The position numbers and the translations under genes are program-made. Positions 13,833 to 45,944 of a stretch of DNA of 45,944 bases are shown here, piece after piece. The DNA comes from Methylobacillus sp. GTDB lineage: Bacteria > Pseudomonadota > Gammaproteobacteria > Burkholderiales > Burkholderiaceae_C. The DNA is taken from contig JABBAS010000016.1 in the NCBI GenBank assembly GCA_018607835.1, positions 1-45,944 on the forward strand. Direction: 5' to 3'. Numbering within the stretch: position 1 is the stretch's first letter; every line of letters starts with the position of its first letter. Below the pieces are notes generated by a model. That model was given only the letters and a program-made list of their open reading frames with translations, made no database searches and was not told where the DNA came from.

Positions 13833-13899
13833 GGGTGTGGGTTGCGCTGTCGCGGTTTCAGTGGGGTTAACCGATCCAAGTATATGGGCTTTGGATGTG

Positions 13900-13916
13900 G
13901 CCGCCGTTACGGCGGC
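13900..13916. promoter_or_regulatory. 17-bp palindrome between eptA and pap2, possible operator
   Basis: Two 8-bp arms, GCCGCCGT and ACGGCGGC, flank a single central T. The minus strand reads TATACT at 13884-13879, 47 bp before the eptA ATG, and the palindrome covers where a -35 box for that hexamer would lie. A repressor or activator site is a reasonable guess; no regulator gene is adjacent. Confidence 0.4.
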
Positions 13917-13960
13917 ACCCACACCCGTTTAAGATAGCGTGCTGCGGTTACCGATACATG

Positions 13961-30300: not shown

Positions 30301-31600
30301 TCTTGAACGCCAGCGGTGCCGCGAGGTCACCGGTCCACGCCACGCTCGCTTCGCGCACCAAGCCTTGTGGCGCATAGGTGCGCAAGGCCCCTAACGCGGT
30401 AGGGCCCAACGGCAAGCGGTTACCCAACTCACCCAGTAATTTGAGATCTAAATAGGTCCCGGTTAGCCGCCCTTTGCCGGGTTGGTTGCCATCGCTCGCC
30501 TGCCAATCGAGTTGGGCGTTGCCGCCCGGCCAACGCAAGCCATCACGCGTCTCAAATGCCAAGCCCTGTGTGCGCAGCGTCCAGTCCGTGTCGGTCTCTG
30601 ACCAATCCAGCTGCCCGGCGAGACGCTGCAGTTGCAGTGGCGCCAAGTCGGCACCTAACTGCACATCGAGGTCCGTCAGGGCGATCTCGTTGCGAATGGA
30701 TTGAATGCGCACGCCGCGTCCCACGGCCAACTGGGCACGCCAAGACCCCTCGCCACCGCGAACCCAATTCGACGGGAGATTCAAGGCGCCATGGGTGGGC
30801 CAACGGTCTGTTGGGATAAACCGAGACAACAGGGCGCGCAATGCTTCTAGGCGCACCGATGGAATTTGCGTCTCTACGTCGCCTTCCCAATCGGCAAAAT
30901 CGGTCAGTGATGAAGAGAAATAGCCGCCACGCATGCGCGCTGACGAGGTCATACGGGCACCCAGGTCACTCGGCGGTGTTACCTCTAACTGTAAGGCGTG
31001 GTTGCGGCCGTTATTGGCAAACGTCGCATCAATCGCCGTAAAGAGCCACTGCTGCGGTTCACCCTGCCCGTCCCGCAATGCGAGGGTGCCACCAGAAACG
31101 GCTATCCGCGGCTGGGCAAGCAACCAGTTTAGCCACCGCGGTGGCTCGGTCGTCGTCGCGGCGGTGTAGGGTAGCCCTGCGATAACCCATGCACCCGAGG
31201 CTTGCCGCGCCGCCTGCACGACAGGGGCCGTGATTTGCACGTCCGCCAATTCCAGCTGCCAAAGGGACGCCAGAGAGAAGCGCAGGTCGACTTGGGGAAT
31301 GGACAATGCGGGCCCACCATCCGCCCCATCGATACGTATCCCTTTAACGCGCAGATGCGTGGTGCCGTTTTGGCTGTCGCCTTCAATCCCGCCAATATGA
31401 ACCGGCAATCCGAGTGAATCACTCAGCTTGACCTCAATACGCGCACGCCAATCGTCCACACGGGGCACAATCGTGGTGTGTATCAGCCAATAGGCGGCAC
31501 CCACTACCCCACTAAAAATCAAACATGCAAGCAACAACCACTTCAGCACAGCACGAAGCCAGCTGCGTGATTGGACGGTCGGTTGATTGGTCTGTTGCAT
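27383..31600 (-). CDS. yhdP: YhdP-family AsmA-like envelope protein
   Basis: A giant protein of 1405 residues with one N-terminal membrane helix (VLKWLLLACLIFSGVVGAAYWLI, about 18-40) and a very long periplasmic part. The start of that part, with the LSDSLGLPVHIGGIEG segment, and the C-terminal segment with QGLGALVLMEGSADMKAETQDLNVVVVP match the YhdP family. The family forms long hydrophobic grooves and, in E. coli, helps move phospholipids to the outer membrane. The ATG lies only 11 bp from the divergent glnE ATG, the typical arrangement in Burkholderiales. Its length slightly exceeds E. coli YhdP (1266). Confidence 0.92.
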   Translation of the reverse strand: MQQTNQPTVQSRSWLRAVLKWLLLACLIFSGVVGAAYWLIHTTIVPRVDDWRARIEVKLSDSLGLPVHIGGIEGDSQNGTTHLRVKGIRIDGADGGPALSIPQVDLRFSLASLWQLELADVQITAPVVQAARQASGAWVIAGLPYTAATTTEPPRWLNWLLAQPRIAVSGGTLALRDGQGEPQQWLFTAIDATFANNGRNHALQLEVTPPSDLGARMTSSARMRGGYFSSSLTDFADWEGDVETQIPSVRLEALRALLSRFIPTDRWPTHGALNLPSNWVRGGEGSWRAQLAVGRGVRIQSIRNEIALTDLDVQLGADLAPLQLQRLAGQLDWSETDTDWTLRTQGLAFETRDGLRWPGGNAQLDWQASDGNQPGKGRLTGTYLDLKLLGELGNRLPLGPTALGALRTYAPQGLVREASVAWTGDLAAPLAFKTNGQASGVSWLAASPEGDAPLGRPGVDGLDVTWTGDQLGGRLQLQMAAGRWTLPGLWADPVLGVDSLAADMQWTAPQAPANEWTVRTDALTLTTGGSRLDGAVLWRSGPDPAGRLTLTLNADHVDLNGLPRYFPLTLKDAGVRDYLATHLLAGRANDVRVAFDGALDAFPFASREEGHLDIRADITQATFDVGRQLGPELAWPALTQLAGQFEMRDNAIRFSKATGRLRDAPAIVLTDGSFEIPQISGQKPMTVVLDARGPFSAWLSQLNKSPLAAKTQGYMRDWQGDGEATLRLELAVPLAASAVEPVGVRGGVSLSKVGLRPFPSLPPLQDLSTRIAFTDQSITVSNASATWLGGPMTGEGTWRLSPTGESMLQAQVRGSLRAESIARTPALGRLALAARKARGEARFVASVRQTPESGFELKLNAPLTEMAIDLPAPLNKLSGTPWDLQAVLQTAPPSALPTDMVRGQEFGLHIGPVGAPLLRARVQRAYAAATPDVRPISLALREPDVVRGAYVFGSTDAVPVTLPESGVAADIRMPAFNADAWMAVFEPTTPPVRVGVALPARPVTTSGGVNAASMLAAFEAYLPTTIVGAADLVTVSGRRFHQVVLGGSRAGPLWRANVLAEELNGYVQYNFGQQGAQDKLYARLAMLNLAEAQTNDVVDLLSNQPKAMPALDVAVDQLTLSGRDLGRFQLQASNRLARQEGGKVANEWQIEVLRLDMAEASFQATGQWAPVARKAKLPAETAARRTYLDVDLTVRDGGALLTRFGMPGVLRAGSGSLSGQLAWLGAPTRFHTPSLSGALNVDMQKGQFLKADPGLSKLLGVLSLQSLPRRLTLDFSDVFFQGFSFDGVRGSATIRDGVLTTNNLTMQGLGALVLMEGSADMKAETQDLNVVVVPKVDNGTLALLAAAANPVVGVVTYFANEFLDGLINRVTVKGFHVTGSWADPDVADVKVDDAMKQKIPASTPK

Positions 31601-31611
31601 GACAGTTAATT

Positions 31612-34377
31612 ATGACCCCGAGCGCACCCGAAACAGATAAGCTCCCGCAAACGGGCGCAGGGGCGAACGTGCGGCCCGGGCTAGCCGCACATTCGCGGTT
31701 TGTCCAACGCATTCGGCGTCGGTACGCCAATGAGCTTACTTTATTGGCGCCTGGCCTGCCAAGCCAGGCCCATATGGTCAGCACCCTGCAAGTCCTCAAC
31801 GACAAAGGCTACGACCTAGGGGCCAGCCTGCGCATCTTGCGCCAATTGGTGATCGAACGCCTCGCGGTTTTAGACTGCGAGTGCGCAGCATCTGCACAAG
31901 ACGTCACGCAAACCGCCACCACGTTGGCAGAGTTCACACTAGACAAAGCCGTCACCGCGGCCCAGCAATCGCTCAAAGAGATTCACGGCGCCCCCATGAT
32001 TGACCCGGACAACGAGACCGCGGACGAACCCAAGGAAGCCACCCTCTGGGTCGTTGGCATGGGCAAACTAGGGGCGCGCGAGCTGAACGTATCCAGTGAC
32101 ATCGACCTGATCTACGTCTACGACGGTGACGGCCGCACCACAGGCAACGCACACGGTTTGCAACGCATTAGCAACCAGGCTTTTTTTGCCAAAGTCGTTC
32201 GGCAGGTCTATCAGCTCATTGGAGAGTCCACCGAACATGGCTTTGTATTTCGCGTGGATTTGGCGCTGCGACCCAACGGTAGCGTGGGGCCCGCCGCAAG
32301 TGCACTGGATGCACTGGAGACCTACTTCGTGGTTCAAGGGCGCGAGTGGGAGCGTTTTGCCTGGCTCAAGAGCCGTGTGGTGGCACCCGCTGAAGCGCGT
32401 AAAGCCGAGACCGTTTTCTCTTTGCGCGACGTCGTTTTGCCTTTTGTGTTTCGGCGCTACCTAGACTACAACGTCTTCGAAGGCCTACGCCGTCTGCACC
32501 AGCAGATACGCGTGCACGCGACCAAGCGCGCCAGCGGCCACCCAGAGCGGGCGAATGATGTGAAGCTCTCGCGCGGTGGCATCCGTGAGATTGAGTTCAC
32601 GGTGCAGTTGTTACAAGTGGTGCGCGGCGGGCGCTTCCCCGAGTTGCGCACCCGCTCAACGCTTGATGCGCTTGACCGCTTGGCCAAGGCAGACCTCATG
32701 CCGCCAGAAACGGCGACTGCGCTGGCACAAGCCTATGTGTTTTTACGACAAGTGGAACACCGTGCGCAGTATCTAGACGATCAGCAGACCCATATGCTGC
32801 CAGTCGATGACGGTGACTTAGCGTGGATCGCACAATCCATGGCATACCCCCAAACCACCGACTTCCTGTGTGCACTCGCCGCACACCGCGAGACGGTTGC
32901 ACAAGAATTTGACCGCCTCCTCGGTAACGATGCGCCCTGCACCAACTGCGATGGCTCGCAACGGCTAGAGGGCGACCTTGATGCGGTTTTTGACACGCTG
33001 ACGGGGGCCTTCAAGGAGCGTATCGACACGTGGCGCGCCAACCCACGCGTTTTGGGTCTGCGCGAAGACGTGCGTATTCGACTGGCACGTCTCATCCAAC
33101 GCACACACGCTTGGCTAGTCGATGGACATGTCTCAGAGACGGGTGCCGTGCGACTCGCCGACTGGCTAGAAGCCCTGATGCGCCGGGACAGTTACTTGGC
33201 CCTGCTACACGAACGGCCAGGCATTCACGAGCGCTTGCTGCGCTTGCTCAGTGCGGCGAAATGGCCGGCACGCTATTTGATACAGCACCCCAGTGTGATC
33301 GATGAGCTCGCCAACGCCACGATGCTGGATGAGCGCTTCGACGCCGCTCAATTCGAATCGGAATTGGAGTCCCGACGCGCCGCATTGATCCGAACCGGCG
33401 AGGACGGCGAGGAAGAGTTGCTCAACCTGCTACGACGCGCCCACCACAGTGAGGTGTTCAGAACGCTCGCCAGAGACGTCGAAGGCCGCCTAAGCGTCGA
33501 ATGGGTTGCCGATGACTTGAGTGCCTTGGCCGACACGGTTCTTAAAGTCGCCATGCGGTGGTGCTGGGCGCTCATTCGTCAGCGGCACCGCGAGGTGCCA
33601 GCCATCGCCATATTGGCCTACGGAAAACTTGGCGGCAAAGAGCTGGGCTATGGCAGTGACCTGGATATTGTGTTCGTCTACGAAGACCCGCATGACGACG
33701 CCCCAGTCGCTTATGCCGCGTTGGTGAGAAAGCTAATTAATTGGCTCACCGTAAAGACAGCGGAAGGCGACTTGTTCGAGATCGACACCGCGCTGCGCCC
33801 GAATGGCAACTCGGGCATGTTGGTGACCCGCATGGACAGCTATGCGGACTACCAACAGCAACGCGGTAGCAATACCGCTTGGACGTGGGAGCACCAAGCC
33901 ATCACGCGGGCGCGGTCTGCGGTGGGTGATCCTGCCCTAAAAGATGCGTTCGATGCCGTACGCGAGGCCGTCATGATCGCGCCGCGTGACTTAGCCCGTC
34001 TGCGCGAGGAAATCACCTCCATGCGCGCGCGCGTGCGTCAGGCGCATCCGGTGCCTGCTGGCCTGTTTGATGTCAAACACAGTGTGGGCGGTATGGTCGA
34101 TGTTGAGTTTGTGGTGCAGTACCTGTTATTGGCACACAGCAAAGACCACCCCGCACTGCGCCCCAATGTGGGCAACATCAAGCTGCTCAGAATCGCACAG
34201 ATGGGCGGCTTGCTACCTGAGGCGATCAGCGATAGCGCTGCTGACGCCTACCGGTCGCTTCGGCAAATTCAGCACCGTGCACGCCTAGACGAGACCGCAA
34301 CACAAGTTCCTGTTCAGGACGCGCGCGCTTACCAAGAGGCGATTACCGCCTTGTGGCGAACGGTGTTTGGGCCCTAG
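31612..34377 (+). CDS. glnE: Bifunctional glutamine synthetase adenylyltransferase/deadenylase
   Basis: It controls glutamine synthetase by attaching and removing AMP in response to PII and glutamine. Two nucleotidyltransferase domains are visible, each with an acidic metal site: NVSSDIDLIYVYDGDGRT around residues 160-178 (deadenylase half) and GYGSDLDIVFVYEDP around 680-694 (adenylylation half). Both are followed by the DLALRPNGSVGP or DTALRPNGNSGM element, and each half contains an R-G-I-R-D/E-I-E-F or V-G-G-M-V-D-V-E-F segment. Length 921 residues is normal. Start ATG at 31612 is 11 bp from the divergent yhdP start. glnA is not in this window. The stop lies 7 bp from the end of the convergent desaturase-like gene. 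Confidence 0.96.
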   Translation: MTPSAPETDKLPQTGAGANVRPGLAAHSRFVQRIRRRYANELTLLAPGLPSQAHMVSTLQVLNDKGYDLGASLRILRQLVIERLAVLDCECAASAQDVTQTATTLAEFTLDKAVTAAQQSLKEIHGAPMIDPDNETADEPKEATLWVVGMGKLGARELNVSSDIDLIYVYDGDGRTTGNAHGLQRISNQAFFAKVVRQVYQLIGESTEHGFVFRVDLALRPNGSVGPAASALDALETYFVVQGREWERFAWLKSRVVAPAEARKAETVFSLRDVVLPFVFRRYLDYNVFEGLRRLHQQIRVHATKRASGHPERANDVKLSRGGIREIEFTVQLLQVVRGGRFPELRTRSTLDALDRLAKADLMPPETATALAQAYVFLRQVEHRAQYLDDQQTHMLPVDDGDLAWIAQSMAYPQTTDFLCALAAHRETVAQEFDRLLGNDAPCTNCDGSQRLEGDLDAVFDTLTGAFKERIDTWRANPRVLGLREDVRIRLARLIQRTHAWLVDGHVSETGAVRLADWLEALMRRDSYLALLHERPGIHERLLRLLSAAKWPARYLIQHPSVIDELANATMLDERFDAAQFESELESRRAALIRTGEDGEEELLNLLRRAHHSEVFRTLARDVEGRLSVEWVADDLSALADTVLKVAMRWCWALIRQRHREVPAIAILAYGKLGGKELGYGSDLDIVFVYEDPHDDAPVAYAALVRKLINWLTVKTAEGDLFEIDTALRPNGNSGMLVTRMDSYADYQQQRGSNTAWTWEHQAITRARSAVGDPALKDAFDAVREAVMIAPRDLARLREEITSMRARVRQAHPVPAGLFDVKHSVGGMVDVEFVVQYLLLAHSKDHPALRPNVGNIKLLRIAQMGGLLPEAISDSAADAYRSLRQIQHRARLDETATQVPVQDARAYQEAITALWRTVFGP

Positions 34378-34384
34378 AGACGCC

Positions 34385-35218
34385 TCACGTCAGGCCAGCG
34401 TTGATCTGTTTCCTGAAGCGGTTCAGTTCCTGCACCGACTTGAACGACTCATTCATCAGCAAGCTGAGGTTGTGCAAGATACGGTCCACCACTTTGGTCT
34501 CCCAGCTTGCGTCAAACCGGATTTGCGTGTCCAACCAGTTCTCCAACCACTCGGGGTTGGGCATGCGGCTTTGAATCGTATCGTTTGGAAACAACGACTT
34601 GTTAACGTGCAGATTGGTTGGGTGTAGCGCCTGCGCCGTTCTACGTGCACTGGCCATCAAAACGCCTACTTTGGCGAAAGCAGCCCGGGCCTCATCACCA
34701 AAGTTGTTTATGGCACGTCGCATGTACCGTAAGTAGGCGCCGCCGTGTCGTGCCTCGTCTTGACTCAATGTGGTGTAGATCTGCTTAATCACCGGCTCGG
34801 TGTGCCACTCGGCTGCGCGCCGATACCAATGGTTCAAGCGTATCTCGCCGCAAAAATGCATCATCAAGGTTTCGAGCGCAGGGGCGGGATCAAACTCAAA
34901 GCGTACCGCGTGTAGTTCGCTCTCGGTTGGCATCAGGTCTGGGCGAAAGCGGCGCAGATAGTCGATGAGCACCAAGGCGTGCTTTTGCTCTTCGAAAAAC
35001 CAAACCGACATAAAGGCAGAAAAGTCCGAGTCGTGACGGTTGTCACGCAAAAACATTTCCGTTGCGGGCAGCGCCGCCCATTCCGTGATGGCATTCATCT
35101 TGATGGTCTGCGCTTGCTCATCCGTCAGCTGGGCCGCGTCAAAGTCACCCCAAGGGATGTCCTTCTCCATGTCCCACCGGACCGCCTCTAGTTGCTTGAA
35201 CAACTCCGGGTACAACAT
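34385..35218 (-). CDS. Diiron protein of the acyl-ACP desaturase/ferritin-like superfamily
   Basis: A 277-residue helical protein with all the metal-ligand positions expected of an acyl-ACP desaturase: Glu46 in TEWAALPATE, Glu77 and His80 in WFFEEQKHALVLIDYL, Glu125 in FCGEIRLNHW, and Glu155 and His158 in LSQDEARHGGAY. In plant stearoyl-ACP desaturases the same series reads E-LP, EExRH, E and DEKRH. It should bind a diiron centre and could put a double bond into an acyl chain, but the substrate is unknown and other ferritin-like functions are possible. The ATG at 35218 has AGGAG 6 bp upstream; a GTG one codon earlier is less well spaced. It follows the CarH-like regulator on the same strand after 106 bp, so it may be part of the same response. 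Confidence 0.75.
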   Translation of the reverse strand: MLYPELFKQLEAVRWDMEKDIPWGDFDAAQLTDEQAQTIKMNAITEWAALPATEMFLRDNRHDSDFSAFMSVWFFEEQKHALVLIDYLRRFRPDLMPTESELHAVRFEFDPAPALETLMMHFCGEIRLNHWYRRAAEWHTEPVIKQIYTTLSQDEARHGGAYLRYMRRAINNFGDEARAAFAKVGVLMASARRTAQALHPTNLHVNKSLFPNDTIQSRMPNPEWLENWLDTQIRFDASWETKVVDRILHNLSLLMNESFKSVQELNRFRKQINAGLT

Positions 35219-35290
35219 CACTGACTCCTACGCAAAAATTACAAATCAAATTTTAATTAAGGCCACACGTCAGACACGATACCTTCCCAA

Positions 35291-35317
35291 GATACCCACT
35301 TCTTCGCGGCGGGTATC
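35291..35317 (-). other. Stem-loop between the CarH-like gene and the diiron gene
   Basis: Seven-base arms GATACCC and GGGTATC pair perfectly around 13 nt, 8 bp past the regulator's stop codon. No T-run follows on the minus strand, so it is not a standard terminator; it could be a partial terminator or a leader structure for the diiron gene. Confidence 0.35.
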
Positions 35318-35324
35318 GACAACG

Positions 35325-36242
35325 CTAGTGCGATGCGCGCCAGACATCTATCGCCGACCGGATGTCGCTCGCCGATGTAAAGGCACGCGCAACCGCGATA
35401 TCCGTCACGAGACGCAACGCCACGGCGCTACCGCCGACCCACACCTCCGTGGCGGGTGGCAACATGCCACGCAGCTGCTTCAGTTGCGACAGTACTTCGC
35501 GCGGTGCATTTTGCCCAGAGAAGCTTAGCGCAAAGATGTCTGGCTTGACAGCGAGGCACGCCGCCACGGCCTCGTTCAACGGCATACTGGTACCGAGTGA
35601 CAAGCGATCGCAGCCCGCCTGAGCGAACATGGACTCCGCCATAAGTAGACCAATCTCGTGGCGCTCATTACCCAAGGTCGCCAGCAACACCAACGGGGGC
35701 TGGGCAGCTGACTGCAGTGGTAATTGTTCCATCGCTTGGATCAACACACTTCGAATCACCGCCGTAAACAAGTGCTCTTGATAAATCGCGATTTGGCCAC
35801 TCAACCAAAACTCACCAACGCGTGCACCCAAGGGCGCGATCACACGCTCTATGACCGCCGAAATGCCACGCTCGCTGATTAAGTGCATCAGTCGCCCATG
35901 CAAGGCTTTGCGGTCAGTCGCCTTGATCATGACGACCAAGTCATTTAGCAACGCATCGCTGGCCTCATCAAGCACACGGCCAGTCAGTGGCCGCACCGCA
36001 TTGTCCACACGCCGCTGCAGTTCGTCCACCGCCATCGGCACCACGCGCCCTGCGCGCTCCCCAAGGTCTAGCAGGCGCTTAATCAGTCGGAGACGAAACA
36101 ACTGGGCGTCATCGTAAAGACGTTCATCGGTATCATCGCGCTGCGGCTCCGGAAAACCGTAGCGCCGCTCCCAAACACGCAACCGATCCTTGGCGATGCC
36201 CGTGTCGCGTTCGATGTCAGATATGGTGTGTATCCAAGTCAT
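35325..36242 (-). CDS. MerR-family cobalamin-binding photoreceptor regulator, CarH/LitR-like
   Basis: An N-terminal MerR winged helix (about 1-70; ISDIERDTGIAKDRLRVWERRYGFP) is joined to a helical bundle and a C-terminal cobalamin-binding domain, 305 residues in all. The bundle shows the CarH motif Wx9EH exactly: Trp146, Glu156, His157. The cobalamin domain has ExHxxG as Glu193-Arg-His195-Glu-Ile-Gly198, where His195 should be the lower cobalt ligand, then LSLGTSMPLNEAV and a Gly-Gly pair (270-271). CarH proteins bind adenosylcobalamin in the dark, repress as tetramers, and release DNA when light breaks the Co-C bond. The residue after Trp146 is Leu; in Thermus CarH that place is His132, which ligates cobalt in the light-exposed state. 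It is divergent from the lipid operon at 36380, its probable target. Confidence 0.85.
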   Translation of the reverse strand: MTWIHTISDIERDTGIAKDRLRVWERRYGFPEPQRDDTDERLYDDAQLFRLRLIKRLLDLGERAGRVVPMAVDELQRRVDNAVRPLTGRVLDEASDALLNDLVVMIKATDRKALHGRLMHLISERGISAVIERVIAPLGARVGEFWLSGQIAIYQEHLFTAVIRSVLIQAMEQLPLQSAAQPPLVLLATLGNERHEIGLLMAESMFAQAGCDRLSLGTSMPLNEAVAACLAVKPDIFALSFSGQNAPREVLSQLKQLRGMLPPATEVWVGGSAVALRLVTDIAVARAFTSASDIRSAIDVWRASH

Positions 36243-36244
36243 TG

Positions 36245-36313
36245 GGTTAAAGTGGTTAGGCTTTTAAAAGATTTGTCTAAGACAAGATAGTTTTAAGCTT
36301 AATGGCTTTAACC
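36245..36313. promoter_or_regulatory. Nested dyad operator region between the CarH-like gene and lipid operon
   Basis: A perfect palindrome TTGTCT-A-AGACAA (36273-36285) is centred on 36279. An outer inverted repeat, GGTTAAAG (36245-36252) with CTTTAACC (36306-36313), has the same centre. Counting all 34 base pairs out from the centre, 23 match. Two further palindromes lie inside: CTTTTAAAAG (36261-36270) and TTAAGCTTAA (36293-36302). The layout suits a multimeric repressor shared by both divergent genes, autoregulating the regulator and controlling the operon. A GATAAT -10-like box for the operon lies just beyond at 36315-36320. Confidence 0.65.
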
Positions 36314-36379
36314 AGATAATGGGGTCTTGCCAAGGGTTTCCACTAGGTATTTCTGCGCTTTACGTTACACAACTGCAAC

Positions 36380-37771
36380 ATGACCACCACTGACCAACCC
36401 ACAACGCCCAGCGCCCCAAGCACCCAGCCACGTGTTGCCATCGTTGGGTCTGGTATCGCTGGTTTGTCAGCTGCTTATCACTTAGCTGACAGTGCCGCAT
36501 TAACCGTATTTGAGGCCAACGACTACTTTGGTGGCCACACCCATACCGTTGATGTCACGCTGGACACGGCAAACGGCCCCAAGACCTGGGGCATTGACAC
36601 CGGCTTTTTGGTGCTCAATGAGCGCACCTACCCAAGACTGCTGGAATTATTTAAAGAACTCAACATCCCCTTGGCCGAGTCCGACATGTCTTTTTCGGTG
36701 CAAGTCCCCAACGCGCGTGGCGATGGGCGGGCGCTGGAGTGGAGCGGGACCTCACTGCGTGCTGTCTTTAGCCAAACAAGCAACCTGTGGTCCTTAGACT
36801 TCTGGCGCATGCTGCGAGACGTGCTGCGTTTCAACAAAATTGCCACGGGTATCGCTAGACAGCAAGCGCAAAGCGGCGGCCTGAGTGACGCCACCAGTTT
36901 GCGCGACTTCCTAGAGGTGCATGCGTTTTCAACACCGTTTCGCGACTGGTACTTACTGCCGATGCTCGGTAGCATTTGGAGCTGCCCAACGCCGCAGATG
37001 CTGGCCTTCCCCATTGGGACGCTGGTCCAGTTTTGCGACAACCACGGCCTACTGCAAATTGTGAATCGGCCCAAATGGTTCACCGTCGCTGGCGGCGCGC
37101 GACAATACGTGGACACCATCATCGCGACGCTTGCCGACGCGCGACTGAACACACCCGTGACGCATATTGCCCGCCACCCACACGGCGTCACGATCACGAC
37201 CGCCACGGGCACCGAGACGTTTGACGCCGTGGTACTCGCCTGTCACAGCGATCAGGCCTTGCAGTTACTGAGCGCGCCCTCCGCGTCGGAATCCACTGTT
37301 TTAGGCGCCATCCAGTTTCAAGACAACGTGGCCGTGCTACACACCGACCCGCAGGTGTTACCCCAAGAGCAGCGCGCATGGTCCGCATGGAATTACGAGC
37401 GCGCACCGGAGTCAGCCCAAGAGGATGCGCGCGTCTGCCTGCACTACCTCATCAACCACCTCCAACCCTTGCCCTTCACCCAACCGGTCGTGGTCTCGCT
37501 CAACCCAATAAACCCCATAGACCCCGCACAGATACTGGGCCAGTACGACTACGCACACCCCGTATTCGACGAGGCGGCTATCGCTGCTCAAAAGGAAATT
37601 GCGCAATTGCAAGGGCAAAACCGAACGTTTTTCTGTGGCGCGTGGTGCGGTTATGGCTTCCATGAAGACGGGCTAAAGGCGGGAATCCGTGCCGCGGCCT
37701 TAGTGAAGTCTGCGCTCGTAAATGGCTTTCCAGCGGCGGATGTGCCGCCAGCGGGCGACCTGGATGGCTAG
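36380..37771 (+). CDS. FAD-dependent amine oxidase-like oxidoreductase, lipid operon
   Basis: A 463-residue flavoprotein. The FAD-binding fold opens at about residue 18 with RVAIVGSGIAGLSAAYHLAD, then FEANDYFGGHTHTVDV, matching the flavin-containing amine oxidase and phytoene-desaturase-like group. The C-terminal FAD segment reads FFCGAWCGYGFHEDGLKAGIRAA. Proteins of this kind sit beside CFA-family genes in light- and singlet-oxygen-responsive clusters, and in Rhodobacter sphaeroides a related flavoprotein takes part in furan fatty acid synthesis, so oxidation of a methylated acyl chain is a fair guess. It is the first gene of a five-gene operon facing the CarH-like regulator. The DUF1365 gene overlaps its end by 8 bp. 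Confidence 0.85.
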   Translation: MTTTDQPTTPSAPSTQPRVAIVGSGIAGLSAAYHLADSAALTVFEANDYFGGHTHTVDVTLDTANGPKTWGIDTGFLVLNERTYPRLLELFKELNIPLAESDMSFSVQVPNARGDGRALEWSGTSLRAVFSQTSNLWSLDFWRMLRDVLRFNKIATGIARQQAQSGGLSDATSLRDFLEVHAFSTPFRDWYLLPMLGSIWSCPTPQMLAFPIGTLVQFCDNHGLLQIVNRPKWFTVAGGARQYVDTIIATLADARLNTPVTHIARHPHGVTITTATGTETFDAVVLACHSDQALQLLSAPSASESTVLGAIQFQDNVAVLHTDPQVLPQEQRAWSAWNYERAPESAQEDARVCLHYLINHLQPLPFTQPVVVSLNPINPIDPAQILGQYDYAHPVFDEAAIAAQKEIAQLQGQNRTFFCGAWCGYGFHEDGLKAGIRAAALVKSALVNGFPAADVPPAGDLDG

Positions 37772-38558
37772 CGCCTTATTGGCACGCGTTGCGCACATTG
37801 GGTTTGGCGAGGTGCGTCATGCAAGACACCGACCTAACACCCACCGCTTTGCCTACGCCAACTACTTTGTGTGGTTGCCCATGCGCCAAGCACGCGTGGC
37901 ACCTAGCGCATTCGATACAGCCATTGCACGTAATCGCTGGTCGAGTTTGTCTTTCTATGACGTGGACCACGGCGATGGCTCAAGCGACGCCTTGGCGTGG
38001 TTGGACGAGCTGCTTTCGCAAAACGACATCAGCGATTGCGACGGCGAGGTGTGGCTACACACCTACCCCCGGGTCTTTGGCTACGCCTTTAAGCCGGTCA
38101 GCTTTTGGTACTGCCACACGACAGATGGCGACTTGCGCGCCGTTGTCGTTGAAGTAAACAACACCTTTGGCGAGCGCCACATATACCTGTTACGTGACGT
38201 TCAGTTGGGCGTCACACAAGACCGCGAAAAGGTCTTCCATGTCTCCCCCTTCTGCGCGGTTCAAGGGGCTTACCGCTTCACATTCATGTGGCGACCCGCC
38301 CTCGCCGGTAATCCGCCACGCGTCGTCGCTCGTATCGATCACACCGACACCGACTGGGATGCGGGCCCCTTGTTGTGTACCAGCGTCAGCGGTTCGCTGA
38401 CCCCGCTCAATGCCGACAGTCGCCGTCGAGCCTTGCTGCGATACCCGCTGATGACGTGGGGCGTTATCCTACGTATTCATTGGCAAGCCTTGCAACTCTG
38501 GCGCAAGCGCATTCCTTTTTTCCGCAAGCCCGAACCGCCCGCTGATTTAGTGAGCTAA
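37764..38558 (+). CDS. DUF1365 family protein, lipid operon
   Basis: A 264-residue protein of unknown activity. It starts near ARVAHIGFGEVRHARHRPNTHRFAY and carries the conserved DUF1365 features LHTYPRVFGYAFKPVSFWYCH, VEVNNTFGERHIYLL and KVFHVSPFC. No signal peptide is obvious; the pattern of aromatic and basic residues suggests association with a membrane or lipid. DUF1365 genes almost always lie between an FAD oxidoreductase and a CFA-family gene, as here, so a role in acyl-chain modification is likely though unproven. The ATG at 37764 overlaps the previous stop by 8 bp; a longer frame to 37722 is wholly inside the previous gene and is not favoured. Confidence 0.88.
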   Translation: MASALLARVAHIGFGEVRHARHRPNTHRFAYANYFVWLPMRQARVAPSAFDTAIARNRWSSLSFYDVDHGDGSSDALAWLDELLSQNDISDCDGEVWLHTYPRVFGYAFKPVSFWYCHTTDGDLRAVVVEVNNTFGERHIYLLRDVQLGVTQDREKVFHVSPFCAVQGAYRFTFMWRPALAGNPPRVVARIDHTDTDWDAGPLLCTSVSGSLTPLNADSRRRALLRYPLMTWGVILRIHWQALQLWRKRIPFFRKPEPPADLVS

Positions 38559-38607
38559 GGTTAAATAACTTTTTGACGTACCGACACCTCGCAATAGGCC
38601 CTCTACC

Positions 38608-39840
38608 TTGACTACCAACCTATCCACTACCGCCGACTTGGACCGCATCGATGCGCCCTTTGCTGCCAAGCGTTTGCTTAAGCTGCTGTCAAAAATGACG
38701 CATGGGCAATTGCACGTGCAATGCCCCACCGGTGAATGGCTTCAATTTGGCGAGCCGGGTGGCTTACAAGCCCACCTAAGCCTAAATAACTGGCGTGTGT
38801 TCTCGGCCTCTTTAAAGAGCGGCGATATCGGCTTTGCCGAAACCTATATTGCGGGCGACTGGCAGACACCACAGCTCGCGCACCTGCTGCAAGTACTGAT
38901 ACAAAACCGAGCCGCCATTGAGAGCGCCATCTATGGTCACTGGGCGGGTCGCCTGGCCTATCAGGTGAAGCACTGGCTGAACCGGAATACCAAGGCCAAC
39001 AGCCGAAAGAACATACACGCGCACTACGATCTGGGCAATGCGTTTTACAGCCTCTGGCTGGACCCGACCATGAACTACTCCAGCGCCCTGTACGCGGGTG
39101 GTCTGAGCGACATGAGTGCGGCCCAAGACGCCAAGGTGAAGCGGGCGTTAGAGGCGGTCAACTTACAACCCGGTCAGCGGCTGCTAGAGATTGGTTGCGG
39201 CTGGGGCGCGCTGGCCGAGATGGCCACACGCGACTTTGGCAGCCACGTCGTTGGACTGACGCTATCCACAGAGCAACTCGCATGGGCAAATGAGCGCCTA
39301 GCCGCCACCCCTAACGGACACTTGGCTGATCTGCGCTTACAGGACTACCGTGACATCGGCGTCACCCGCCCTGAGCCGGCATTTGACGCGGTGTGTTCCA
39401 TAGAAATGATTGAGGCGGTGGGTCAGGCGTATTGGCCGACCTACTTCGATACCATTGCCGCGCGACTCAAGCCCGGCGGCAAGGCCTGCATTCAGTCAAT
39501 TGTGATTGATGACGCCCTGTTTGATCGCTACATCAAGGGCACCGATTTCATACAACAGTACATCTTTCCGGGTGGCTGTTTACCCAGCCCCGCCATCTTC
39601 CGCGCGCAGGCGGAACGCGCCGGCTTACAGGTGGTGGACGCACACGCATTTGGACGGGACTACGCCCAAACGCTACAAACGTGGCGTCACGCGTTCTTAA
39701 AGCAAGAGCCTGCCGTTCGGGCGCTAGGCTTTGATACCCGCTTTATTCGCATTTGGGAGTTCTACCTCGCTTACTGCGAAGCGGCTTTCTTGGAGTCCAA
39801 CACCGACGTCGTTCAATTTACGCTTGAAAAGGTGGGCTAA
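38608..39840 (+). CDS. Cyclopropane-fatty-acid synthase-family SAM methyltransferase
   Basis: It transfers a methylene or methyl group from S-adenosylmethionine to the double bond of a phospholipid acyl chain. The 410-residue protein has the family's N-terminal lipid-binding domain, then HYDLGNAFYSLWLDPTMNYS (139-158) and the SAM site LLEIGCGWG (192-200), followed by IEMIEAVGQAYWPTYF. The start is a TTG at 38608 with a modest AGG upstream. A 49-bp gap separates it from DUF1365, the only gap in the operon large enough for an internal promoter. In E. coli Cfa makes cyclopropane rings; relatives in light-response clusters may make methyl-branched or furan precursors. Which reaction applies here cannot be read from sequence. 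Confidence 0.9.
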   Translation: MTTNLSTTADLDRIDAPFAAKRLLKLLSKMTHGQLHVQCPTGEWLQFGEPGGLQAHLSLNNWRVFSASLKSGDIGFAETYIAGDWQTPQLAHLLQVLIQNRAAIESAIYGHWAGRLAYQVKHWLNRNTKANSRKNIHAHYDLGNAFYSLWLDPTMNYSSALYAGGLSDMSAAQDAKVKRALEAVNLQPGQRLLEIGCGWGALAEMATRDFGSHVVGLTLSTEQLAWANERLAATPNGHLADLRLQDYRDIGVTRPEPAFDAVCSIEMIEAVGQAYWPTYFDTIAARLKPGGKACIQSIVIDDALFDRYIKGTDFIQQYIFPGGCLPSPAIFRAQAERAGLQVVDAHAFGRDYAQTLQTWRHAFLKQEPAVRALGFDTRFIRIWEFYLAYCEAAFLESNTDVVQFTLEKVG

Positions 39841-39844
39841 CCGC

Positions 39845-40642
39845 ATGCCGTCATCTCGCCGCTGGTTCCAACCGATGAACCCTCCTCTGCGCGACTGGAA
39901 GGACAAGGTGGTCTGGGTCATTGGTGCCTCGTCAGGCATTGGCTATGCCGTGGCACAACGCTTGGCGGAACAGGGGGCCCACGTGACCGTCTCAGCACGC
40001 AAGCCGGCACCGCTCGAGGCGTTTGCAAACAGGTACCCGACTGGCCGGGCATTGCCCCTAGACGTGACGGATGTGCATGCCCTGCGCGATGCCTGTGCCG
40101 CGCTGGTGGCCAGAGCGGGGCACATCGACCTGGTGCTTTTCGCGGCAGGTGTCTACACCCCCATGCGCGCGCAACAGTTTGACCTCGCCGTGATGCGCCA
40201 GCACGTCGATGTGAACTTACTGGGGGCCTACCATGTGGTTGATGCCGTGCTCGCGACGCTGCGGGCTCAGGGGCATGGTCACATCAGCTTCATCAGCAGC
40301 GTGGCAGCCTGGCGCGGCTTACCCAACGCGCTCGCCTACGGCCCAACCAAAGCAGGGCTGACGCACTTGGCCGAGGTGTTGTATATGGACCTGGCACGCG
40401 AAAATATTGGCATCAGTGCGGTACACCCCGGGTTTGTCGAAACCCCACTGACCGCCCAAAACGCCTTCAGCATGCCGGCCCTGATCACGCCTGACGCAGC
40501 GGCCGATGCCATGCTAGCAGGCTGGCGTGACGGCTTGTTTGATATCCACTTCCCAAGGCGCTTCACGTGGTGGCTCAAGGCGATACGGCTGTTGCCCTTT
40601 CGTTGGGCACAAGCCCTTGTCTTGCGATTAACAGGCCTATGA
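39845..40642 (+). CDS. Short-chain dehydrogenase/reductase, lipid operon
   Basis: A classical SDR of 265 residues. The NAD(P)-binding turn GASSGIG lies at 27-33, and the active site has ISSVAAWRGLPNALAYGPTKAG with Ser, Tyr and Lys in order. The ATG at 39845 is preferred: AAGGTGGG lies 8 bp upstream and the gene starts 4 bp after the cfa stop. An in-frame ATG at 39875 is possible; the open frame back to 39731 is inside cfa. The C-terminal part holds a hydrophobic and basic stretch suggesting membrane contact. It may reduce or oxidise a carbonyl or alcohol on the modified acyl chain, an inference from location only. Confidence 0.9.
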   Translation: MPSSRRWFQPMNPPLRDWKDKVVWVIGASSGIGYAVAQRLAEQGAHVTVSARKPAPLEAFANRYPTGRALPLDVTDVHALRDACAALVARAGHIDLVLFAAGVYTPMRAQQFDLAVMRQHVDVNLLGAYHVVDAVLATLRAQGHGHISFISSVAAWRGLPNALAYGPTKAGLTHLAEVLYMDLARENIGISAVHPGFVETPLTAQNAFSMPALITPDAAADAMLAGWRDGLFDIHFPRRFTWWLKAIRLLPFRWAQALVLRLTGL

Positions 40643-41073
40643 ACACCCAACCAGAAGTGAGCGCACACACCCAAGCATTGGTTGCGTGGTTTGAAGACCT
40701 GAAAGCGACTGACGTCGCGCATATGGGCGCTCACTACGACACGATGGTGTTTTTTAAAGACCCCTTCAACGAGGTCAACGACCTCGCAAGCGTGCAGGCA
40801 ATTTTCCATGAGATGTTCAAGCGCGTGCAACACCCGCGCTTCATCGTCCACGACGTGCTCGAGCAAGGGGCGTCCTGCTTCCTCACATGGGACTTCACCT
40901 TTGAAACGGGTAGCCCGCAACCGTGGTGCATACGGGGTGCCAGCCACCTGCGTTTCAACACGGAAGGGCGGGTGGTCTACCACCGCGATTACTGGGACGC
41001 CGCCGAGGAACTATACGAAAAGCTGCCCGTCATTGGCAGCCTCATGCGGTGGTTAAAGCGGCGGGTCGGCTAA
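40639..41073 (+). CDS. SnoaL-like/nuclear transport factor 2-fold protein, lipid operon
   Basis: A 144-residue protein with the NTF2-like cone: a helix pair (ALVAWFEDLKATDVAHMGAHY), then MVFFKDPFNEVNDLASVQAIF and the sheet half ending GRVVYHRDYWDAAEELYEKLP, the order seen in SnoaL-like proteins encoded beside CFA genes. Such folds act as isomerases, hydratases or cyclases on small polycyclic or lipid substrates; no substrate can be named here. The ATG overlaps the SDR stop in the sequence ATGA, so translation is coupled. It ends the operon; a short hairpin at 41077-41090 follows. Confidence 0.85.
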   Translation: MNTQPEVSAHTQALVAWFEDLKATDVAHMGAHYDTMVFFKDPFNEVNDLASVQAIFHEMFKRVQHPRFIVHDVLEQGASCFLTWDFTFETGSPQPWCIRGASHLRFNTEGRVVYHRDYWDAAEELYEKLPVIGSLMRWLKRRVG

Positions 41074-41076
41074 GCG

Positions 41077-41090
41077 CAACGGCGCCGTTG
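41077..41090. other. Short stem-loop between convergent operon end and GST gene
   Basis: The 14-bp perfect palindrome CAACGGCGCCGTTG lies in the 23-bp gap after the SnoaL-like gene. It is followed by a T-containing but interrupted tract, so it would make at most a weak bidirectional terminator. Confidence 0.3.
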
Positions 41091-41096
41091 GTTTAG

Positions 41097-41711
41097 TTAG
41101 CTGTGGTTTGTCGCAGCGAAACTGGAGCGCGTCGCTAAGGCGCTCTGCCATGCCGCCAGTCGTGGCGACCGATCGCGCCAACCTAGACTTGGAAAGCGGA
41201 AGTCAAGATAGCCCAAGGCACTGACCACCGCGATGTCAGCCAAGCTAAAGGTCTTGCCGCAACAAAAAGGCTTTTCTGCCAGACCCTGTGCAATCGCCTC
41301 AATGGCGCTCTCCACCTTGCCCAACTGTCTATCAATCCAAGCCTGTGAGCGCTCGCTGTCTGCACGACCGGCCCAGCCCGCCTCCAAGCGCGCAAGGATA
41401 GACGCGTCCATGATGCCATCAGCCAGTGCTTCCCAGGTTTTAACCTCGGCACGCTCCCGACCACTTTGTGGGATCAAGCGCCCAACGGGGGACAGCCCGT
41501 CGAGATACTCGACGATGACACGCGAATCAAACATGGCTTCGCCGCCGTCCAAAACCAAGCAAGGAATTTTCCCCAACGGGTTAGCTGCCTTGATGCCGGT
41601 ATCTGCAGCCCACACGTCCTCGGTCATCAGCGTGTAGTCCAAACGCTTTTCTAACATCACAACCCGCACTTTGCGAACGTAGGGACTGGTCACTGAGCCG
41701 ATGAGTTTCAT
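41097..41711 (-). CDS. Glutathione S-transferase family protein
   Basis: A 204-residue protein with the thioredoxin-like N-domain: SVTSPYVRKVRVVMLEKRLDY with the active-site Ser region, then NPLGKIPCLVLDGGEAMFDS holding the cis-Pro and the glutathione-contacting Asp-Ser. The C-domain has the buried FSLADIAVVSALGYLD motif (conserved Asp capping box). Members conjugate or reduce substrates with glutathione; the substrate is unknown. The ATG at 41711 fits the family; a frame to 41792 adds residues with no resemblance to GSTs. Divergent from purB, an arrangement I recall in other Burkholderiales. Confidence 0.9.
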   Translation of the reverse strand: MKLIGSVTSPYVRKVRVVMLEKRLDYTLMTEDVWAADTGIKAANPLGKIPCLVLDGGEAMFDSRVIVEYLDGLSPVGRLIPQSGRERAEVKTWEALADGIMDASILARLEAGWAGRADSERSQAWIDRQLGKVESAIEAIAQGLAEKPFCCGKTFSLADIAVVSALGYLDFRFPSLGWRDRSPRLAAWQSALATRSSFAATNHS

Positions 41712-41814
41712 AATTGATAAAACGAGTAGTGGAGCGCCGATTCTAGCGACAGAATGCCTTGTGCGCTGACGCGGCCAACACCCGCTGGACATCCCGCCGC
41801 CGTATAGGCGCTAA

Positions 41815-43709
<1,895 letters not shown>

Positions 43710-43820
43710 GGAACTCGTTATTACTGCTTTTTGCAACGCGGTGGTTGCTTAGATGAACGCATATTATCTTGCCCGCAATGCACTTGCATGCAGCAAGGTA
43801 CCCGGTCCGTTCGTGGCCCA

Positions 43821-45464
43821 CTAAGGCCTGACTGCGGATGCGTCTGCAATCGCTTGTAAAACCCAACGCTCACGCGCATAAATAATCGCTGCGTCCGTCT
43901 CGTTCACCGCCCCCTTTGAGCGTGCAATTAAGTCGCGTGCCGCCTTTAGTCGATCGCGCGCACTGGGCAACAGCTCCCGCGTAATATAAAACTCAGCGTC
44001 GGCACGCAACGCCGCCAGGGGCCTATTTTGAGCCGTCTCTAGGCGTGACATCAGCTGCCACGCCAAGCCATCTTGTGGGTAACGTACCAACCAGGACCGC
44101 AACAGCTGCACGGCGTCATCGACCCTCACCTGCGCGGCGTCCGCACCCAACAAGTTTGAGGCAGCCGGCGCGGCAACCAGCCCGGCAAGCACCAGCAGTG
44201 CGGCGCGACGCCCAGCCTGCGCATCCCCTTGCGCGGCGGCTAACCAGCCCTCTACGGACTGCCTCACGCGTACGGCGACCTCCGGTGGCAGCGCATGGGG
44301 TTCCGCCAACCAACCGATTGCCGTTTCTCTCAGCACTTGTTGCACCGCTTCAGGGGTGTCGGTAGCGCCTAACAGCGCCAACAAGGGGGGCCAGGCGTCC
44401 GCGTGGCGCTGCGCAGCCCAGGCGGCAATGGCGCGTTGATAGCCTACTTGCCATCGAGTTGTTGCGGGCACTGACCCGGCGGGCGGCGTCACACTGGCCA
44501 ACGCCAACAACGCCTCCGTGGAGTCGGTCATGAGCACCTGCGCGCGCAGGCGCAGCAAGGCGGATGCGTCTGGGTTGAGCAATCCGGGAGGGGCGGTGCT
44601 TGCCGTGGTGTCAGGCAAACCAAACAGCCTAGCCTGCATATCGGCAACGCGTTGGCTGGTTAATGGGTGACTGCGGAGATACGGAAATGCACCGTCGTCG
44701 TTCAGGCTGTTGGCCCGTTGCAGCTCATCAAACAAGCGCACAAAGCCCTTTGGATCAAAGCCCGCATCCGACAACACCATCAGGCCCTGCCGGTCCGCCT
44801 CTTGCTCCATTTCGCGAGAGAAATTCAGCTGCCCCTGTATCGCGGCCGCTTGGCCTCCCACCACCAAGGCGGTGCCCACATCGGCGTTGGCGCCGACCGT
44901 CGCGACGCCCAATAACATCGCAGCCAACACCCAAGGCGCCTGACTTTCTTGGCGGGCAATAATGCGCGCAATGTGGCGCTGCGTTACGTGGCTAAGTTCA
45001 TGCGCTAGCACGGACGCCAATGCCGCATCGTCTGGCGCAGACGCCAGTAGGCCCAAATGAAATCCGAAGTACCCGCCGGGCAGCGCAAAAGCGTTAATCG
45101 ATGGCGCGTTCAACAGCCACAGTTGCCACGCAAATTGCGCCTGCATATCCGATGCAAGGTCACCCCTCGCCACGGCGGCATTAAATACGGGTTGCCACAG
45201 GTCATACAGGTATTGATTCAGTAAAGGGTCTTCAACCACCAAGCCAGACCCATGCAAATTAGGCATGACCTGCTGACCCAGACGACGCTCGTCGCCCAGA
45301 GACAGGTCGGCCCCACCGCCTAAGTTTGGCAACCCATTGGCGGCGCGCACGGGGGCGTACATGCAGCAGAGGAGAAGCCCAACTACGGTGACGAACACGC
45401 CCGCTCGAAAGCGGCGGGCAAGCGACGCCCCACGAGGATAGGCGGCAGACAAAGGGCGGTGCAT
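43821..45464 (-). CDS. Periplasmic M48 metalloprotease with TPR tail, BepA-like
   Basis: A 547-residue exported protein. The signal peptide has a basic start and the core VFVTVVGLLLCCMYAPVRA. The M48 domain carries HELSHVTQRH with zinc ligands His155 and His159 and catalytic Glu156, and EMEQEADRQGLMVL with the third ligand Glu further on. The rest is helical, TPR-like. E. coli BepA assists or degrades the outer-membrane protein LptD; a similar quality-control task is likely. The ATG at 45464 is preferred; the frame extends to 45497, overlapping the moaC leader. The gene is divergent from moaC, an order I recall in Burkholderiales. Confidence 0.9.
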   Translation of the reverse strand: MHRPLSAAYPRGASLARRFRAGVFVTVVGLLLCCMYAPVRAANGLPNLGGGADLSLGDERRLGQQVMPNLHGSGLVVEDPLLNQYLYDLWQPVFNAAVARGDLASDMQAQFAWQLWLLNAPSINAFALPGGYFGFHLGLLASAPDDAALASVLAHELSHVTQRHIARIIARQESQAPWVLAAMLLGVATVGANADVGTALVVGGQAAAIQGQLNFSREMEQEADRQGLMVLSDAGFDPKGFVRLFDELQRANSLNDDGAFPYLRSHPLTSQRVADMQARLFGLPDTTASTAPPGLLNPDASALLRLRAQVLMTDSTEALLALASVTPPAGSVPATTRWQVGYQRAIAAWAAQRHADAWPPLLALLGATDTPEAVQQVLRETAIGWLAEPHALPPEVAVRVRQSVEGWLAAAQGDAQAGRRAALLVLAGLVAAPAASNLLGADAAQVRVDDAVQLLRSWLVRYPQDGLAWQLMSRLETAQNRPLAALRADAEFYITRELLPSARDRLKAARDLIARSKGAVNETDAAIIYARERWVLQAIADASAVRP

Positions 45465-45475
45465 ATCGGTATGAT
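45446..45475 (+). promoter_or_regulatory. Possible promoter for moaC
   Basis: CAGACA (45446-45451) and TATGAT (45470-45475) are 18 bp apart on the plus strand. Transcription would start near 45482. The region overlaps the first codons of the divergent M48 gene. Confidence 0.35.
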
Positions 45476-45528
45476 GCCTTAAGTTGCCGCACACCATGTC
45501 GGAAATACTTTTATCGGAGATCGATTCT

Positions 45529-45944
45529 GTGTCCAGCCCAAGCTCAAGCCCATCACCACTTACCCACTTTGACCCACAGGGTCAGGCCCACATGGTGGAC
45601 GTTGGCGAAAAAGCACATACACGCCGCATAGCCACCGCAACGGGCATCATCAACATGCACCTAGACACCTTGGCCCTGATCGAAGGGGGCCACGCAAAGA
45701 AGGGCGATGTGTTGGGTATTGCGCGCATTGCAGCGATTCAAGCCGCAAAAAAAACCAGTGACCTCATCCCGCTATGCCACCCCCTGGCGTTGACCCACGT
45801 GCGTGTCGCCTTGGAAACGGGCCAACAACCACCCCACGTGCGCTGTACCGTCACCACAGAAACCACTGGCCCCACGGGCGTAGAGATGGAGGCCTTGACC
45901 GCCGTGCAAGTCGGCTTACTCACCATTTACGACATGTGCAAAGC
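45529..45944 (+). CDS. moaC: Cyclic pyranopterin monophosphate synthase MoaC (3' end outside window)
   Basis: With MoaA, it makes cyclic pyranopterin monophosphate, the first intermediate of molybdenum cofactor synthesis. The visible 138-residue part starts [19 protein letters not shown] and shows [18 protein letters not shown], then the hallmark [16 protein letters not shown] and the [13 protein letters not shown] segment of the active site. The gene runs past the right edge, so the C-terminal end is missing. The GTG at 45529 has GGAG about 9 bp upstream; an in-frame ATG at 45496 would add 11 residues, and cannot be excluded. Confidence 0.93.

Follow-up and report, generated by a model that had tools for sequence, protein, structure and literature searches.

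A CarH/LitR-like regulator gene, a Ufa-like operon and a linked diiron desaturase-like gene in Methylobacillus: a candidate light-stress module for membrane lipids

Furan fatty acids and their synthesis have been described in Rhodobacter sphaeroides and Rhodopseudomonas palustris. In R. sphaeroides, the counterparts of the furan pathway are RSP1091, RSP1090 and RSP2144, and a triple mutant of this species regains the furan product with no more than UfaD, UfaO and UfaM of R. palustris. Singlet oxygen is lethal to R. sphaeroides cells that cannot make the furan, and the loss of ChrR raises the amount of furan product (PMC7380195). Here we describe a 45,944-nucleotide stretch of Methylobacillus sp. 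(contig JABBAS010000016.1 of assembly GCA_018607835.1), hereafter called the window, in which a gene for a MerR-type, CarH/LitR-like regulator faces an operon of the Ufa kind and is followed on its own strand by a gene for a ferritin-like diiron protein.

Comparable genes occur beside light regulators in Pseudomonas. The pmlR1 region contains phrB, ufaM and genes for a short-chain dehydrogenase/reductase (SDR) and a flavin adenine dinucleotide (FAD) oxidoreductase, and the light-inducible genes of Pseudomonas putida include ufaM and phrB. The class II LitR works without B12, has a LOV partner and has kept one of two B12 domains (PMC9758184). The initial annotation of the window likewise held that sets of FAD, DUF1365 and cyclopropane fatty acid (CFA) synthase-like genes are known from light and singlet-oxygen responses and that Rhodobacter makes furans with such proteins. 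The window resembles the Pseudomonas LitR regions (pmlR1, PplR) in combining a MerR-type LitR with FAD oxidoreductase, ufaM-like and SDR genes. It differs from them in that its regulator is of the B12 type, unlike class II LitR, and the accessible text of PMC9758184 makes no mention of a diiron gene.

The FAD, DUF1365 and CMAS-type genes of the window are adjacent and co-directional, and the three protein types that they encode recur, in an order that agrees by locus number, in RPA2571-2570-2569 (UfaD, UfaO, UfaM) of R. palustris (PMC7380195). Compared with the Ufa pathway, the putative furan-type operon of the window has a CarH/LitR-like regulator gene opposite, SDR and SnoaL genes directly after it and the diiron gene beside it. 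The regulator and the operon are of a known kind, and the novelty lies in the diiron gene; a published report of its linkage with such an operon was not found in the open-access literature. We consider it fairly probable that the locus is a compact module against light or photo-oxidative stress, in which CarH/LitR-like control, a Ufa-like operon and a diiron desaturase/oxygenase belong to the same membrane programme.

In such a module, the regulator, probably loaded with adenosylcobalamin (AdoCbl), would bind in the dark to a palindrome between the divergent genes and hold down both its own gene and the facing operon, and light would free it from the shared promoter and thereby switch the operon on. 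The UfaD-, UfaO- and UfaM-like enzymes, with the SDR and SnoaL proteins as helpers, may then methylate, desaturate and oxidise membrane acyl chains, and the resulting furan-type or methyl-branched fatty acids would quench singlet oxygen. The diiron protein would be a soluble desaturase/oxygenase that acts on chains bound to acyl carrier protein (ACP) or on acyl-lipid chains and supports the same membrane programme. A precedent is CarF of Myxococcus, a lipid desaturase tied to photo-oxidative signalling (PMC9131029).

One line of evidence for this proposal is the recurrent neighbourhood of the diiron gene. In 50 of 77 placeable cases it lies within 15 kb of a DUF1365 gene, measured from match start to match start, where about 0.66 cases would be expected at random placement in genomes assumed to be 3.5 Mb long. 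A further 24 diiron places, from genomes that contain the two genes, are not among the placeable cases, the DUF1365 matches listed being the stronger ones, and five DUF1365 places come from another search. The two genes are on opposite strands in 40 of the linked cases and on the same strand in 10, and at least one linked case was found in 15 of 23 families. Among the neighbours in 72 diiron loci, the Ufa-like pair is present in 38 (15 of 30 family labels), MerR in 23 (10 labels), GPx in 19 (7), glnE in 17 (1) and photolyase-related genes in 6 (5); twelve of these loci (L086, L187-L197) were included for a link or second copy already noticed in them, and two families appear under separate labels according to gene copy. 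The initial annotation counted a lack of conserved linkage in relatives among the outcomes that would refute it; instead, the diiron gene recurs beside the operon, in part together with regulator and photolyase genes.

Individual loci show even closer arrangements. In six of them (L187, L189, L190, L191, L069 and L071) the diiron gene is the next gene downstream of SnoaL, 16-138 nt away and in the same orientation, and one genome (G262) has two diiron copies, one at the operon end (L187) and one beside rfaE2 (L188). Outside the order, in L179, a photolyase open reading frame (ORF) begins 2 nt after the end of the diiron ORF, and both stand in tight succession with a third ORF (L179:8161-10983), which from a motif we take to be a dihydrofolate reductase. 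L180, likewise outside the order, has an SDR-diiron pair opposite a photolyase-FAD-DUF1365-CMAS series.

The diiron gene was searched for in samples of relatives, of the order and of the class (Gammaproteobacteria). Hits were obtained in 54 of 100 relatives and in 147 of the 399 genomes sampled from the order. The class sample gave 11 among 323 genomes, nine of which are outside the order, belong to six families and show 66-73% identity. The best 80 named loci of at least 583 confirmed ones are mostly from Ramlibacter, Polaromonas, Variovorax, Hydrogenophaga and related Burkholderiales. The diiron gene and DUF1365 occur together in 100 genomes of the order sample, against 47 with the first alone, 93 with the second alone and 159 with neither (Fisher 2e-9, kinship ignored). 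The respective numbers are 44, 10, 21 and 25 for the 100 relatives (p 3e-4), and 11, 7, 6 and 16 with one genome per other family (p 0.053). These samples are not phylogeny-corrected, and the two genome collections overlap (for example, L110 and L041 come from one genome), so that counts of loci and stretches are not counts of independent lineages.

Several of these and other results weigh against a shared programme, and part of them support a different explanation, which is possible but doubtful: the diiron gene could have a function of its own in Burkholderiales-type lineages, in housekeeping or in iron/oxidative stress, and lie beside the module by inherited order, with the operon alone making the lipid. 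Desaturation in the published pathway is carried out by UfaD, an FAD protein, and no diiron enzyme is needed (PMC7380195). Of the 77 placeable cases, 27 are unlinked, and in the order sample DUF1365 is absent from 47 of the 147 diiron genomes, while another 93 genomes with DUF1365 have no diiron gene. Several loci of Variovorax and Ramlibacter retain the diiron gene with no operon at that place; the presence of an operon elsewhere in such genomes was checked where the DUF1365 searches cover them. The gene rfaE2 is near the diiron gene in 29 of the 72 loci (16 of 30 family labels) and, because it is linked about as often as the Ufa-like pair, part of the diiron linkage is old synteny; linkage as the sole proof of a diiron role was rejected on the same grounds. 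An independent gene would also suit the high conservation of the protein and the lack of the palindrome in its upstream regions. It would not account well for the position at the operon end with short gaps, the operon copy that exists besides the rfaE2 copy in one genome, the photolyase neighbours outside the order, or a paralogue in an operon with ACP, desaturase and CMAS genes. The proposal of the initial annotation that the diiron gene has been added to the module is partly supported: the recurrent linkage speaks for it, and the rfaE2 control and the diiron genomes without DUF1365 weaken it. Its further proposal, that membrane acyl chains undergo desaturation, methylation and oxidation one after the other upon light exposure, is tentative.

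The paralogue is encoded in a genome of the same genus (G001, L086:7766-13970). It is 58% identical and heads a tight operon with the order diiron, CMAS, 4HBT thioesterase, acyl carrier protein (presumably so, named from its sequence by motif), alpha/beta hydrolase, two FA_desaturases and patatin, which is apparently a dedicated fatty-acid pathway. This operon is the best hint that the diiron family handles acyl chains; it was seen in one genome, which limits its weight for the shared programme.

The diiron protein itself matches Pfam FA_desaturase_2 (PF03405) with 31.4 bits (cut-off 22.7, E 1.2e-7), at profile positions 174-224 alone. Twenty aligned relatives are 58-84% identical to it, and EEQKH (E77/H80), DEARH (E155/H158), E46/E54 and E125 are invariant in the 21 sequences including the window. 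Soluble acyl-ACP desaturases are defined by two (D/E)EXXH motifs and two further helix carboxylates, and the diiron ligands are predicted from the alignment to be E46 (or E54), E77/H80, E125 and E155/H158. The two (D/E)EXXH motifs and the ferritin-like diiron fold are shared with the acyl-ACP desaturases of castor (4v0j/2xz1) and Mycobacterium tuberculosis (DesA2, 1za0), whereas the identity to these enzymes is about 15%. The best AlphaFold model, built with 36 sequences, has a pLDDT of 79.4 and a pTM of 0.79. Stearoyl-ACP desaturases are the best fold matches; an acyl-ACP desaturase is the top Foldseek match (E 7e-4) and the sole one below 0.001, and acyl-ACP desaturases occupy ranks 1-9 in VIA-align (Z 16.0-16.9), the best with Z 16.9 over 236 residues at 3.6 A.

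Other structural results are less favourable to a desaturase role. The other four AlphaFold models spread from pLDDT 76.7 to 47.9, the sequence matches to desaturases in the Protein Data Bank (PDB) are insignificant (DesA2, E 0.24), and VlmB (Z 15.8) and R2lox (Z 15.6) almost tie with the desaturases. With these two scoring nearly as well, the fold comparison makes the class clear rather than the reaction. The protein could, for instance, be an AurF-like N-oxygenase or an encapsulated ferritin without any lipid role, and the VlmB fold match as well as the scores for AurF (PF11583, 23.7 bits, cut-off 29.6) and encapsulin-associated ferritin (TIGR04535, 27.9 bits, cut-off 125) agree with that. 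Both scores are below their cut-offs, and the two memberships were rejected, whereas FA_desaturase_2 is above its own, nine acyl-ACP desaturase entries come first and the paralogue has a lipid context; this explanation is therefore very improbable. Overall, the protein is distantly related to fatty-acid desaturases and likely acts in acyl-chain oxidation; a step in the furan pathway is a more tentative assignment.

As a further and tentative proposal, the diiron protein might found a Burkholderiales-centred family of acyl-chain desaturases/oxygenases and be a further, hitherto unrecognised enzyme of the light-controlled synthesis of furan or methyl-branched fatty acids. It might ready the substrate of the UfaM-like enzyme or oxidise the products, and the paralogue might serve a separate ACP-dependent pathway.

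The regulator has a MerR domain (PF13411, 45.7 bits, cut-off 21.6; MerR_1, E 7.2e-12) and a four-helix B12-binding_2 domain (PF02607, 29.2 bits, cut-off 23, E 1e-6); a candidate C-terminal B12-binding (Rossmann) domain reaches 24.9 bits with PF02310 (cut-off 32.1), and the alignment with CarH extends to residue 228. Solved CarH structures match residues 3-228 with E ~5e-23. CarH of Thermus thermophilus (PDB 5c8d/3whp) has what appears to be the same domain layout, and it has the same key AdoCbl residues W131, E141, H142 and H177 (named in PMC11796333), but the window regulator faces genes of a lipid type rather than carotenoid genes. The four residues are present in 40 of 42 aligned regulators, with the window, its duplicate and the T. 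thermophilus CarH counted. The exceptions are MerR homologues beside the diiron gene in L052 and L084, which have lost the W, the EH and the cobalt-ligand H and, judged from these residues, are possibly B12-independent versions.

The published light signature of CarH/LitR is GxxW, EH, GxxH and GxxxP (PMC11796333). The window regulator matches it with GEFW, EH and GTSMP, but GxxH reads NERH (NxxH), which speaks against light sensing of the CarH kind; the G of this position is present in just 19 of the 42 aligned regulators. Because of this change, and because the score of 110.2 bits misses the NCBIfam CarH equivalog cut-off of 400, the protein is classed as CarH/LitR-like and not as a member. 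The altered motif could indicate a regulator that does without cobalamin light sensing and takes its signal from a partner protein or from oxidative stress. Class II LitR is B12-free (PMC9758184), reactive oxygen species act on MerR in the Vibrio cholerae model (PMC5241685), and a BtuR/CobA-type adenosyltransferase was not found in the genome. We regard such a regulator as unlikely in view of the W, EH and H kept in nearly all homologues, the CarH-like sequence through residue 228 and a PduO-type corrinoid adenosyltransferase in the genome (5.1e-54), by which AdoCbl could plausibly be made from corrinoid.

The divergent promoter region, with 137 nt between the starts of the MerR and FAD genes, contains a perfect copy of the palindrome TTGTC-N3-GACAA, a candidate operator of the regulator. 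When up to one mismatch is allowed, 29 of 41 MerR homologues have it upstream, against 0.25 expected from block-shuffled sequence, as do 12 of 42 GPx genes next to the operon (0.05 expected) and 7 of 77 FAD genes (0.60 expected); divergent neighbours may share one site in these counts, and some stretches are one genome fetched twice. The palindrome differs from the TGTACA-type operators of Pseudomonas LitR (PMC9758184). Upstream of diiron genes it is not enriched, with 2 of 161 stretches at up to one mismatch (0.55 expected) and 14 against 9.8 expected at up to two. This again weakens the case for a shared programme, and control of the diiron gene by the regulator through a palindrome of its own is unsupported. 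The diiron gene probably uses mainly its own promoter; 72 TAAAAT boxes were counted, without a control, 20-59 nt before the diiron start in the 161 stretches. Read-through from the regulator gene is possible, because a consensus scan found no terminator-like site between the two genes. The consensus scan likewise gave no promoter-like site in the MerR-diiron or MerR-FAD intergenic stretch.

A regulon elsewhere in the genome was not found in a genome-wide scan limited to TTGTCTNAGACAA with up to one mismatch. Two other genomic sites, one between two ORFs and one before a third ORF, were judged to be chance; we take the flanking ORFs to be ruvA/ruvB and the other ORF to encode a substrate-binding protein. 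In the stretches around three photolyase domains, no palindrome with up to one mismatch lies upstream of the photolyase genes, and one such site is inside the photolyase ORF of L221.

By analogy with R. palustris, the window operon may make a furan fatty acid of the 9M5 type. Its third gene passes PF02353 and is below the cut-offs of the CFA equivalog models, the best being PRK11705 with 250.5 of 400 bits; the comparison was made with these family models, and the scores do not tell UfaM and CFA synthases apart. If the third gene encodes an ordinary CFA synthase, to which the PRK11705 score would correspond, the operon would yield cyclopropane or methyl-branched chains instead of furans, with the UfaD/UfaO-like proteins modifying the product differently. 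This seems rather unlikely given the missed equivalog cut-offs and a gene order equal to that of the R. palustris UfaD-UfaO-UfaM set, which was shown to be sufficient. The DUF1365 gene of the window is the sole DUF1365 match of the genome. In many relatives the operon is longer and comprises GPx, FAD, DUF1365, CMAS, chalcone-isomerase-like, MFS transporter, DUF3833, SDR and SnoaL genes. In L041, L046 and L053, three same-genus loci, CMAS and SDR are separated by the chalcone-isomerase-like, MFS and DUF3833 genes. In the window (38608-40642) CMAS and SDR are 4 bp apart, and its five-gene operon therefore looks shortened.

The seven genes, their strands and their spacings are as the initial annotation had described them, and the Pfam families of the regulator, the diiron protein and the five facing genes are matched beyond chance (Table 1). 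With ATG starts at 37764, 39845 and 40639, FAD and DUF1365 overlap by 8 bp, DUF1365 and CMAS are 49 bp apart, CMAS and SDR 4 bp apart, and SDR and SnoaL overlap by 4 bp. The mechanical ORF of DUF1365 begins at 37722, and its start at 37764 gives the overlap with the FAD gene. The diiron gene follows the regulator on the same strand, with 106 nt from the MerR stop to the diiron ATG. Its mechanical ORF is 34385-35221 on the minus strand, with a Met at 35218 after the first codon; this ATG is the likely start because 20 of 20 aligned relatives begin at the following Met (MLYP or close). The locus is flanked by glnE (31612-34377) and by GST and purB genes (41097-43278), and Pfam identifies a gene for an EptA/EptB-type phosphoethanolamine transferase at 12171-13922 on the minus strand of the window.

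Table 1. Features of the regulator, operon and diiron locus in the window
Feature	Coordinates	Strand	Evidence
Diiron (ferritin-like) protein, acyl-ACP-desaturase superfamily, 277 aa	34385..35218	-	Pfam, alignment, AlphaFold, fold search
MerR/B12-binding regulator, CarH/LitR-like, 305 aa	35325..36242	-	Pfam; PDB CarH match; AdoCbl-site residues
Palindrome TTGTCTAAGACAA, divergent promoter region, candidate regulator operator	36273..36285	.	Perfect copy
FAD/NAD-binding amine-oxidase family, UfaD-like	36380..37771	+	PF01593 6.7e-25; position as in UfaD-UfaO-UfaM
DUF1365 protein, UfaO-like	37764..38558	+	PF07103 4e-74
CMAS/CFA-family S-adenosylmethionine methyltransferase, UfaM- or CFA-like, TTG start	38608..39840	+	PF02353 1.1e-80
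SDR, ATG 39845	39845..40642	+	PF00106 4.8e-41
SnoaL_2 family protein, ATG 40639	40639..41073	+	PF12680 1.7e-12

A mobile or viral origin was rejected, with no phage match, no PHROG match and 4 plasmid records. The conjugative-typed plasmid RPME01 of Methylibium petroleiphilum (L167:8291-10843) carries a diiron gene (81%, annotated as ferritin) after genes for an iron-containing redox enzyme and a crotonase. In L165, an 83% identical diiron gene lies beside rfaE2 in a record entitled Cytophagales bacterium MAG19, a title that is probably wrong.

A conserved RNA-like element of about 110 nt was found in 67 loci of relatives (for example L141:9004-9114, L089, L095 and L102). It occupies the stretch between a diiron, GPx or MerR gene and a following FAD, GST or CorA gene, with 64 copies on the FAD strand. 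An alignment of 34 copies predicts 24 pairs, 19 of them with compensatory changes; the last helix, which is followed by a U-rich tail, closes a C-rich, anti-Shine-Dalgarno-like loop with CUCCUCCUCCCUCCCUCCCU. The element is a candidate structured RNA and resembles small RNAs of the anti-Shine-Dalgarno type. Searches at three loci gave no Rfam family (E up to 1), and no known RNA family was found in window positions 30000-45944. With a covariance model, the element was detected in 20 of 60 relatives, namely 19 of the window's family and a weak one elsewhere (E 4e-4), and was absent from 10 of 10 genomes of the window's genus.

If the locus is indeed a light-stress module that includes the diiron protein, a B12-type light sensor would drive the remodelling of membrane acyl chains in common Burkholderiales. 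A strongly conserved family, annotated as ferritin in one record, would gain a lipid role, and the production of unusual fatty acids could draw on a new diiron enzyme. Since furan fatty acids guard against singlet oxygen, light sensing, DNA photorepair and membrane protection would thus be linked in non-phototrophic bacteria.

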